Assembly (NCBI GenBank): GCA_029974595.1
Contig: JARKRC010000063.1
Location: 1-64,000 of the forward strand
Origin: Ereboglobus sp.
GTDB taxonomy: Bacteria > Verrucomicrobiota > Verrucomicrobiia > Opitutales > Opitutaceae
DNA length: 64,000 nucleotides
Direction: 5' to 3'
Part shown: positions 2,751 through 15,580 of the stretch, in pieces
Layout: each line of letters begins with the position of its first letter
Numbering within the stretch: position 1 is the stretch's first letter
Program-made: the position numbers and the translations under genes
The notes under the pieces: model-generated
Database searches by the model: none
Told to the model about the DNA's origin: nothing
The model's input: the letters and a program-made list of their open reading frames with translations, nothing else

Positions 2751-4595
<1,845 letters not shown>

Positions 4596-12882: not shown

Positions 12883-13176
12883 ATGGCGCTAAACCAGACC
12901 GAGCAGCGGATATACGATTACGTGCGGGAGAATCCCGAGGAAAAACATTTTTGGGAGCACAAGGTTCGCAGCGTCGCCGCCGCGCATGCGGACGACTTCA
13001 CCGCAGCCGCCGCGCTGGACATGGAGCTGCGCGCGTATGTCATCGAGCGGGCGAGCGCGACAAAACAACTCGCGGACGCGCCCGTCCGCATGAGCATGCG
13101 CGGTCTGGCCGAATATCTAATACGCACATGGACAACCCCGCGGCCCAAAAAGAAAGCAGCGCCTGGATCGGATTGA
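12883..13176 (+). CDS. Hypothetical protein, 97 aa
   Basis: A small mainly helical protein (MALNQTEQRIYDYVRENPEE at the start, basic PRPKKKAAPGSD at the end). I do not recognise a family. The composition and codon use match the genome, and it follows the hybrid kinase on the same strand after ~95 bp. It may be a DNA- or protein-binding accessory factor, but nothing in the sequence shows this. Confidence 0.6.
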   Translation: MALNQTEQRIYDYVRENPEEKHFWEHKVRSVAAAHADDFTAAAALDMELRAYVIERASATKQLADAPVRMSMRGLAEYLIRTWTTPRPKKKAAPGSD

Positions 13177-13262: not shown

Positions 13263-13352
13263 ATGCCCAAAAGATCAAGCGGACTCGTCGTAAATATTAT
13301 TTCAAAACTCGTGATGTCTATTTTTCAGGACGATGCCGAAGATTCGCGGTGA
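13263..13352 (+). CDS. Candidate 29-aa ORF
   Basis: An ATG 3 bp after the previous small ORF opens a frame of 29 codons (starting MPKRSSGLVV, ending AEDSR). The close spacing is the only argument for translation. I cannot assign a function. Confidence 0.2.
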   Translation: MPKRSSGLVVNIISKLVMSIFQDDAEDSR

Positions 13353-13447
13353 GTGTTTGAATCGGTTTTGATTAAAACATAAATAATTGTTTACCATATT
13401 CTTGTGGTTGATTAGTCTTGCATCTCCTGCATCAAGGGGTGCAGGGA
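13353..13447. other. AT-rich leader region before the tandem RNA elements
   Basis: This part is much richer in A/T than its surroundings (for example TTGATTAAAACATAAATAATT) and ends in a weak hairpin, CCTGCA...TGCAGG. It could hold the promoter for the downstream structured elements, but I cannot place -35/-10 boxes with confidence. Confidence 0.3.
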
Positions 13448-13625
13448 TTCAAACGCCCGTTTGAAGAATTTCAAAAAATTTCCGGATTTTTTTGAAACAT
13501 TTTTGGGATGTTTGCGTCTTACATGGCGTAGGTAGTTCAGATTTCTCCCGCATAGCGGGAGATTTGGGGTAACAAAGAAAGCAATGGGCGGTCCGCTTAG
13601 GGGTAGGCGGGCCGCCCTCTTTTTT
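13448..13625 (+). ncRNA. Candidate structured RNA, copy A of a tandem pair
   Basis: This is the first of two tandem units about 267 bp apart. It has three stem-loops: TTCAAACG/CGTTTGAA at 13448-13465, CTCCCGC-ATA-GCGGGAG at 13545-13561, and a 10-bp GC stem at 13587-13616 followed by a T-run. A 97-bp core (13514-13610) is identical to copy B. Stem 1 differs in its loop between copies but keeps its pairing, and stem 3 differs by U-G here versus U-A in copy B, again keeping the pair. That favours a selected RNA structure, though a dispersed REP-like DNA repeat is the main alternative. Orientation is inferred from the T-tract. Confidence 0.5.
13587..13625 (+). terminator. Rho-independent-type terminator of copy A
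   Basis: GGCGGTCCGC pairs with GCGGGCCGCC (one U-G wobble) around a 10-nt loop, followed by CTCTTTTTT. This is a strong intrinsic terminator shape on the plus strand. Confidence 0.65.
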
Positions 13626-13715
13626 GCATGGATATTCTGAATGACGAAAAGACGGGAAATGCGTTCGGCTTTATGCGGAAGTTTGCGCGGATTGAAGGCA
13701 GCCCGGATACGGCGA

Positions 13716-13890
13716 TCAAACGGATGGTTTGAAGCCGGAAAAAATAATTGGATTTTTTTTGAAGCATTTTTGGGTGCTTGCGTCTTACATGGCGTAGGTA
13801 GTTCAGATTTCTCCCGCATAGCGGGAGATTTGGGGTAACAAAGAAAGCAATGGGCGGTCCGCTTAGGGGTAGGCGGACCGCCTCCTTTTT
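13716..13890 (+). ncRNA. Candidate structured RNA, copy B of a tandem pair
   Basis: The second unit repeats the three-stem plan: TCAAAC/GTTTGA at 13716-13732, CTCCCGC-ATA-GCGGGAG at 13811-13827, and the terminator-like stem at 13853-13882 followed by TTTTT. The 97-bp core at 13780-13876 is identical to copy A. It ends about 100 bp before the start of the PIN-PhoH gene, so it could be an attenuating leader of that gene or an independent small RNA. The 90 bp between the two units shows no similarity to the stretch before copy A. Confidence 0.5.
13853..13890 (+). terminator. Rho-independent-type terminator of copy B
   Basis: GGCGGTCCGC pairs perfectly with GCGGACCGCC, followed by TCCTTTTT. It lies upstream of the PhoH-type gene and would stop read-through into it unless conditionally disrupted. 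Confidence 0.65.
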
Positions 13891-13987
13891 ATACTCATGG
13901 CGGCGGAAAAAAACAGCCGGGGAACACGGGATAGTATTGGACAAAGCGGGAATGCTGTGCTGGGTTATTCACATCTTATCCACACCA

Positions 13988-15580
13988 ATGGAAAGCCTGA
14001 GCCGGGCCAACGCCCACAAATCGCAACTGCTCAAGGAATCCAAGGCGAAGGTGAAAACCTTCGTTCTGGATACCAACGTCCTCCTTCACGATCCACAGTC
14101 GATCTTCAAGTTTGAGGACAACAACCTCGTCATCCCCGTGGAGGTTTTGGAGGAGTTGGATACCATCAAGACTGAACAGTCCACCGAGCGCGGCCGCAAT
14201 GCGCGGCGTGTGCACCGGATATTGCAGGAGCTGCTGCCCGATTCGCACGCGATGCTGGAAGGCGTGCGCCTGCGCAACGGCGGGACGCTTTCCGTCATCA
14301 TAAATTACTATCTCGTGGACCAGCATTTTTCGGGGTCGAACCCGGCGATGCTGCGCTTGCAGGCGGTGCTTCCGGATTTATCCAAGAAGGACAACCGCAT
14401 CATAGCCTGCGCCCTGTATGTGCAGGAGCAGTTTCCGCCTCCGGTCATCCTCGTGACGAAGGATGTGAACGTGCAGCTCAAGGCGCGCGCCGTCGGCCTG
14501 GAGTCGCAGGATTATCTCAACGACAAGGTGCCCGCCGCCGACGCCGAGGCGCGCGAGGGCGCATACCGCGAGATTCCCGCCACCGTATATGAAATGCAGC
14601 GTTTTTGCTCGGAGGGCTTTTTTGCCCTTGAGGGCGGGGGCTCCAAGGGTCTTGCGCTCAACGACTATGTGCTCCTGCGTTCCGATGTCGGCAAAACCAT
14701 GCCGGCCCGTGTGGCGAGTATGGATGCAAGCAACGGCTCGTGCGTGCTGGGGCGTTTGAGAATTCCCGAAAGCGTGCGCGCGCCGGGCGGCATTCCGATC
14801 CGGCCTCGCAACCTTGAACAGCAGTTTCTGATCGACGCCCTGCTCGACGACTCGATCTCGGTCGTCACCTGCTTCGGCAAAGCCGGCACGGGCAAGACGC
14901 TGCTTTCGATTGCCTGCGCGCTGTATCAAACGCAGGAAGGCCACGGCGCGCTCCAGTCGCGCTACGACGGCGTTTCCATTTCGCGCCCCGTCATCGCCGT
15001 GGGAAAGGAAATCGGTTTCCTGCCAGGCGCGATCGAGGAGAAAATGAGGCCGTGGCTGCAGCCGTATTTCGACGCGCTCGAAGTGTTGATTCCCTCAAAG
15101 CCGCCGAAGGAGGCTCAATTTGCCGAGAAAAAAGTCTCGAAGAAAAAGAAGGCGAAGCACGAAGCCGCCATGCGCGCGATGGAAGCCGCACCGATGTCCC
15201 AGGCCTCAAGTCACGCCGGCGGCGGAAACGGCACGGGAATAATAAAACCCTACGAACGCCTGATTCGCAGCGGCATGGTTGAAATCGAGGCGCTGTGTTT
15301 CATCCGCGGACGCTCGATTGCGCGGCGCTTTTTCATATTGGACGAGGCGCAGCAGCTCACGCCGCACGAGGTGAAGACGGTGATCACGCGCATCGCCGAG
15401 GGCTCGAAGATCGTATTGATTGGCGACCCCGCACAGATTGACAATCCCTATGTCGATTCGCGCAGCAACGGCCTTGTATATTGCCACAACAGGATGCGCG
15501 GCCAGTCGCTCGCAGCCCACGTCACGCTCGCAAAAGGCGAGCGCTCCAAACTCGCCGAGCTGGCTGCGGATTTGCTGTGA
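13988..15580 (+). CDS. PIN-domain and PhoH-type ATPase fusion (YlaK/PhoH2-like)
   Basis: A 530-aa protein combining an N-terminal PIN nuclease-like domain (TFVLDTNVLLHDP, acidic EVLEELD, later KDNRI and LVTKDVN) with a C-terminal PhoH ATPase. Walker A is GKAGTGKT and Walker B is FFILDEAQQ, followed by LIGDPAQIDN. PhoH2-type proteins are RNA helicase/RNases. Between the Walker motifs lies an unusual basic insert (EKKVSKKKKAKHEAAMRAME, then a Gly/Ser-rich tract). The ATG at 13988 begins at a charged helix; an in-frame ATG at 13952 is possible. Copy B of the tandem element lies just upstream. Confidence 0.9.
   Translation: MESLSRANAHKSQLLKESKAKVKTFVLDTNVLLHDPQSIFKFEDNNLVIPVEVLEELDTIKTEQSTERGRNARRVHRILQELLPDSHAMLEGVRLRNGGTLSVIINYYLVDQHFSGSNPAMLRLQAVLPDLSKKDNRIIACALYVQEQFPPPVILVTKDVNVQLKARAVGLESQDYLNDKVPAADAEAREGAYREIPATVYEMQRFCSEGFFALEGGGSKGLALNDYVLLRSDVGKTMPARVASMDASNGSCVLGRLRIPESVRAPGGIPIRPRNLEQQFLIDALLDDSISVVTCFGKAGTGKTLLSIACALYQTQEGHGALQSRYDGVSISRPVIAVGKEIGFLPGAIEEKMRPWLQPYFDALEVLIPSKPPKEAQFAEKKVSKKKKAKHEAAMRAMEAAPMSQASSHAGGGNGTGIIKPYERLIRSGMVEIEALCFIRGRSIARRFFILDEAQQLTPHEVKTVITRIAEGSKIVLIGDPAQIDNPYVDSRSNGLVYCHNRMRGQSLAAHVTLAKGERSKLAELAADLL

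Follow-up and report, generated by a model that had tools for sequence, protein, structure and literature searches.

The window, meaning the whole 64,000-nt stretch of DNA analyzed here, belongs to contig 4 in a 4.07-Mb genome from Ereboglobus sp., a genus that NCBI taxonomy places under Opitutaceae, Opitutales. Between a small gene and phoH it carries two related units in head-to-tail arrangement, unit A (approximately 13448-13625) and unit B (approximately 13716-13891). The upstream gene, which we call p97 (12883-13176), encodes a 97-aa protein with no Pfam match. The longest phoH reading frame opens at 13850, just before the terminator hairpin of unit B, and an alignment of relatives suggests that phoH starts at 13988. 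An earlier sequence-only reading of this region had described two tandem copies of a structured element sharing an identical 97-bp core. Both copies are present (13473-13624 and 13739-13890; 90% identity across 152 nt, spacing 266 bp), and the core is identical as described, with a corrected length: the longest run without a difference is 99 nt (13512-13610 versus 13778-13876), compared with a longest shared run of 8 in 1000 shuffles.

Unit A begins with a palindrome, TTCAAACGCCCGTTTGAA (13448-13465), a candidate regulator site recognized from a pattern shared within the genus. All further features lie on the forward strand. They begin with a promoter-like block (13493-13522; TGAAAC, 16 nt, then CGTCTTAC), in which GCGTC is conserved, and a predicted sRNA (13528-13624) whose 5' end we infer from that block and whose 3' end we place by the T-run. 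Within the predicted sRNA lie stem 2 (13544-13562), which has a 3-nt loop and is supported by covariation; a first GGGGUA motif, UUUGGGGUAAC (13563-13573), identified by invariant columns and followed by an A-rich linker; and a terminator hairpin, recognized by its pairing, with a second GGGGUA in its loop and a T-run behind it (13586-13625). Unit B repeats this order: a palindrome, TCAAACGGATGGTTTGA (13716-13732), again a candidate regulator site from the genus pattern; a promoter-like block (13760-13788) assigned by pattern and conservation; a predicted sRNA (13794-13890) with a likewise predicted 5' end; stem 2 (13810-13828), assigned by pairing over the family; the first GGGGUA motif (13829-13839); and a terminator hairpin containing the second motif, with its T-run (13852-13891).

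Both units thus end, as previously noted, in a GC-rich hairpin, of 14 pairs, with a T-rich tail. A simple terminator scan found 2 sites in the region versus 1.1 (SD 1.0) in shuffles, a count that is no evidence by itself. Folding was more informative: both copies folded better than all of 200 shuffles (z = -5.05 and -5.56), and the predicted sRNA of unit A gave z = -5.61. The reported stem 3 difference, U-G in one copy and U-A in the other, was also upheld. The genome contains four strong units in all. The other two, on contigs C25 and C13, are 88% identical over the 82 nt that comprise stem 2, linker, and terminator, and five further matches at E > 0.2 are noise.

A conserved RNA structure with a repeated GGGGUA motif

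Three elements make up the conserved RNA: stem 2, linker, and terminator hairpin. In a MAFFT alignment of 22 sequences, pairing is kept in 99.8% of 418 cells, and both partners vary at 8 of 19 pairs, compared with 1.9 in shuffles; the covariation test proposed for these copies is thus positive. Across 83 distinct sequences, pairing holds in 99.5% of 1554 cells, both-sided changes occur at 18 of 19 pairs (11.1 when shuffled), and the covariation score is 0.467 versus 0.157; this alignment was fitted to a covariance model and therefore leans toward it, whereas the MAFFT alignment is independent. When partners are slid in the larger alignment, pairing falls to 40-59%. Among the 83 sequences, 99.1% of stem 2 cells and 99.8% of terminator hairpin cells are paired, and the U-A pair closing the terminator loop is found in 83 of 83.

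Stem 1, which the sequence-only reading had taken to be a preserved RNA stem, fared differently. Pairing in 21 relatives extends to 60.8% of its cells versus 57.9% in shuffles, and its covariation score of 0.215 (shuffles, 0.173) was equaled by 4 of 500 shuffles and nearly reached by a slide of +1 (0.196). It overlaps the promoter-like block, and the region is conserved as sequence instead.

The fixed parts of the family are mostly unpaired: UUGGGGUAA after stem 2, the A-rich linker, and the GGGGUA in the terminator loop. GGGGTA is present twice in 185 of 189 distinct units, while the surrounding stems vary, including the sequence of the terminator stem. Judged by eye, the alignment showed no conserved upstream antiterminator partner. 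At one locus (L131:3939-4013), a divergent unit that shares its locus with a normal one retains a single GGGGTA motif.

The units form a multicopy family in Opitutales

A search of Opitutaceae genomes, which had been proposed for these units, revealed relatives far beyond the window. At the DNA level, the unit was found in 147 of 150 family genomes, representing 49 of 49 genera; the genomes without a match were G010, G070, and G120. Covariance model R1 (E <= 0.01) matched 132 of 223 order genomes and, in a phylum-wide search, 63 of 387 genomes, of which 61 belong to the order. Model R2 (E <= 0.001) matched 137 of the 223 Opitutales genomes and, at class level, 75 of 384 genomes, 71 of them within the order; some of the 86 order genomes with no R2 match are small or incomplete. 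Positive genomes have 1 to 7 matches each. Tandem units occur at 10 of 175 loci, as double and triple copies.

Outside the order, six genomes matched weakly (E 6.6e-5 to 0.008): G630 and G402 in the phylum search (E 6.6e-5 and 4.5e-4) and G893, G854, G835, and G921 in the class search (E 4.6e-4 to 0.008). None of the three that we inspected (G630, G402, and G893) has both GGGGUA motifs, G893 retaining only an AGGGGU terminator loop, and we take these three to be chance matches. A pattern scan of named genomes returned at least 117 stretches, which, among the matches listed, were mostly from Opitutales, Opitutaceae, or Verrucomicrobia records. Pattern matches in Paenibacillus (L175) and a viral contig (L221) were rejected, having no model match at E up to 1, as were those in Armatimonadota (L169; 19.4 bits) and Alphaproteobacteria (L208), which had no model support. 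A strong unit (98 bits) also lies on a contig labeled Parcubacteria (L161:829-914), perhaps reflecting a binning error or transfer.

The family corresponds to no class that we could recognize. When 4227 Rfam families were compared with the window at gathering cut-off, the only match was a tRNA elsewhere, and none fell on the units. Around the units at E up to 10, the best match was RgsA (E 0.0054; 21.4 bits against a cut-off of 88.4), on the other strand and upstream of the conserved core; eight loci searched at E up to 0.5 gave no match. Together with the strong covariation, this bears out the suggestion of a duplicated structured RNA of no recognized class. No sRNA family from Opitutales is described in the titles and abstract openings of the papers listed from an incomplete literature library, and work combining GGGGUA with small RNAs, judged by titles among the matches listed, concerns plants, animals, and fungi.

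Promoter-like blocks and palindromes precede the units

Several types of promoter-like block recur upstream of the units. The patterns were written after viewing the sequences, so the controls demonstrate excess and not independent discovery: TTGAC-N16-19-TA at 49 of 187 units (1.25 in shuffles), TTGAC or CTTGC at 118 of 187 (27), GAANC-N14-17-CGTC at 22 of 187 (0.6), GGAAC at 8 of 187 (0.1), and a sigma54-like pattern at 10 of 189 (1.1), or 4 of 189 (0.2) in a stricter form. A sigma54-like pattern with another spacing gave 2 of 187 versus 1.35, and at least one of the ten sigma54-like units (L026) also fits the GGAAC type. The sigma-class names, including the ECF-type label for the TGAAAC/CGTC spacing, are our presumption.

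Units A and B carry the GAANC/CGTC type. GCGTC is invariant in 21 units, which were selected for this upstream type. In four genomes of the genus, all nine matches to the ECF-like pattern fall at units. We considered a wider ECF regulon and rejected it, as a strict pattern in the window's own genome and a wider one in the four genomes found units only; because the pattern is limited to units, the sigma class stays a guess. A sigma-70 scan of 13300-14050 found no promoter.

Palindromes accompany these blocks. The TCAAACG...TTTGA palindrome starts 91-104 nt before 7 of the 9 phoH-locus units of the genus; the pattern was not found at either unit of G080. Among 61 DAHP-synthase-linked TTGAC units, a relaxed inverted repeat is present at 40 (9.6 in controls), mostly with a spacing of 28-31 nt, and an exact one at 12 (1.14 in controls). 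The arrangement of this TTGAC...GTCAA-like repeat, flanking the putative sRNA promoter, suggests an operator.

Two conserved genes often lie downstream of the units

Three genes recur beside the units. DAHP synthase lies downstream on the same strand of 64 of 189 units (63 loci), phoH does so at 22 (18 loci), and relatives of p97 are located just before 34 (30 loci). Searched to a distance of 1.5 kb, none of the 189 units had an opposite-strand copy of any of the three. None of these genes was recognized for 88 units, 63 of which are flanked by at least 1 kb on each side; the 88 include both units of one locus (L013) with a partial phoH match downstream. Proteins encoded near the 88 units form cluster groups of at most 11 proteins, with 179 singletons, and few are annotated.

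The gaps between terminator and downstream gene contain promoter-like boxes of their own. A CTTG(C/A) box occurs in 46 of 63 DAHP synthase gaps, compared with 1-7 in ten shuffles. The smallest gap to the start of this gene, at a conserved start codon, is 62 nt; as judged from upstream sequence, DAHP synthase mRNAs may be leaderless. The box is mostly found 38-47 nt before the start codon (e.g., L010, approximately 3980-4080). For phoH, 15 of 18 loci have TCGACA within 60 nt of the start. One or both of TTATCCACA and TTATTCACA occur in 14 of 18 upstream gaps, that of the window's genome included, where TTATTCACA and TTATCCACA are found shortly before the start of phoH (13965-13984). We take these two sequences to be DnaA-box-like.

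With promoter-like boxes located after the terminator, the genes downstream appear to be served by promoters of their own, and the units' stable placement therefore reads as vertical inheritance of sRNA genes. Because phoH and DAHP synthase usually have such boxes and 88 units lack the tested neighbors, the family probably comprises free-standing sRNA genes and not a phoH attenuator. The same observations speak against the double attenuator of phoH that had been offered as one meaning of the tandem copies.

Discussion

We propose that each of units A and B is a complete gene, the two lying in tandem, that encodes a trans-acting sRNA of approximately 85-100 nt and belongs to a multicopy Opitutales family with a mode of action like that of LhrC, and we give this reading a probability of roughly 0.55. 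Each gene would have its own palindrome upstream, promoter-like block, and intrinsic terminator, and its RNA would expose GGGGUA twice, after stem 2 and in the terminator loop. By analogy with LhrC, either copy of the motif would most likely make first contact with C-rich (UACCCC-type) mRNA sites, and this contact would alter translation or decay of the mRNAs. Copies behind different promoters could allow different signals to feed one RNA. What the sequences themselves show is the conserved structure, its distribution and copy number, the terminator hairpins, and the conserved blocks upstream; transcription, action in trans, base-pairing, and the signals are inferred. Near 1114 crude ORF starts from 139 loci, UACCCC showed an unremarkable ratio of 1.40, which ranks 8 of 30 permutations in a comparison of low power. 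Also counting against the proposal are the 86 order genomes with no R2 match, the negative sigma-70 scan, the confinement of the ECF-like pattern to units, and the failure to find a known sRNA chaperone (below). The frequent position of units next to phoH or DAHP synthase would be expected of a cis role as well.

We searched for RNA-binding partners of such an sRNA. Hfq binding, which the A-rich linker had brought to mind, is not supported, with Hfq found in 0 of 61 family genomes (own genome included; 5 of 14 control genomes positive), nor is dependence on ProQ, found in 0 of 41 (own genome included; 1 of 14 controls). KhpA/B gave no match over cut-off in 41 genomes and 13 weak ones. The search for CsrA gave 0 of 3 genomes in the genus and 36 of 61 in the family; as the RNA is near-universal in the family, a CsrA sponge is not supported. 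ANTAR antiterminator targets consist of two hairpins with a hexaloop on each, and the 3-nt stem 2 loop of the family units does not fit that design.

The main rival to a base-pairing sRNA is a free-standing sRNA that captures some RNA-binding protein through its paired GGGGUA motifs, in the manner of CsrB or RsmY. The motif's two identical copies, maintained in fixed structural settings throughout the order, together with the invariant U-A closing the loop and the missing UACCCC signal at starts, are what such capture would predict; with CsrA disqualified by its distribution and no candidate protein in its place, we regard it as rather unlikely. Less probable still is a cis-acting element, an attenuator or riboswitch, in the phoH and DAHP synthase leaders, and we give it little credence. 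It would account for the same-strand pairing of units with these genes, for the lack of opposite-strand matches, and for the hairpin that closes each unit. It accords poorly with the promoter-like boxes that follow the terminator in most of these gaps, with the 88 units that have no such neighbors, with double and triple copies, and with an alignment that, inspected by eye, showed no conserved antiterminator partner. A DNA repeat of the REP type, which the sequence-only reading had tied to many copies scattered in both orientations without covariation, or a set of bare terminators devoid of RNA function would suit hairpins in several copies per genome; this reading is highly improbable given four strong copies in 4.07 Mb, 1 to 7 matches per positive genome, compensatory changes, invariant unpaired motifs, and conserved promoter-like blocks.

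Returning to the trans-acting sRNA, we tentatively entertain a broader scheme, an order-wide promoter-swapped system in which GGGGUA paralogs behind sigma-70-like, ECF-like, and sigma54-like promoters would let many signals converge on one RNA, in hosts that often lack CsrA and in which searches detected neither Hfq nor ProQ. If true, such a system would point to a protein partner or chaperone not yet described. If the family is real, it provides Opitutales with an RNA of near-universal occurrence about which hypotheses can readily be framed: its motif is repeated and can be mutated, two of its locations are conserved and can be probed, and the usual chaperones did not turn up in its hosts.

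Known regulatory RNAs offer three points of comparison. Transcription attenuators precede amino-acid biosynthesis genes, and the units similarly place a terminator ahead of DAHP synthase, an aromatic-pathway gene; unlike attenuators, they are mostly followed by a promoter-like box before that gene, and inspection by eye showed no antiterminator partner. CsrB and RsmX/Y/Z, which capture CsrA, repeat an ANGGA motif in loops and linkers and occur in several copies per genome. The units share the repetition of a short motif in loops and linkers and the several copies, but they carry GGGGUA, and the genus genomes searched yielded no CsrA. The closest parallel is LhrC1-5 of Listeria, described as a five-copy sRNA of 111-114 nt whose motif lies in an unpaired segment, in the loop of the terminator, and a third time in another loop; it acts on lapB without Hfq (PMC4132741). 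We do not assign the units to the LhrC family, given the different motif and the absence of an Rfam match in a library that may or may not include an LhrC model. LhrC carries UCCC where the Opitutales units carry GGGGUA, twice, and the two share a multicopy organization and a redundant short motif placed both in single-stranded sequence and in the loop of the terminator.
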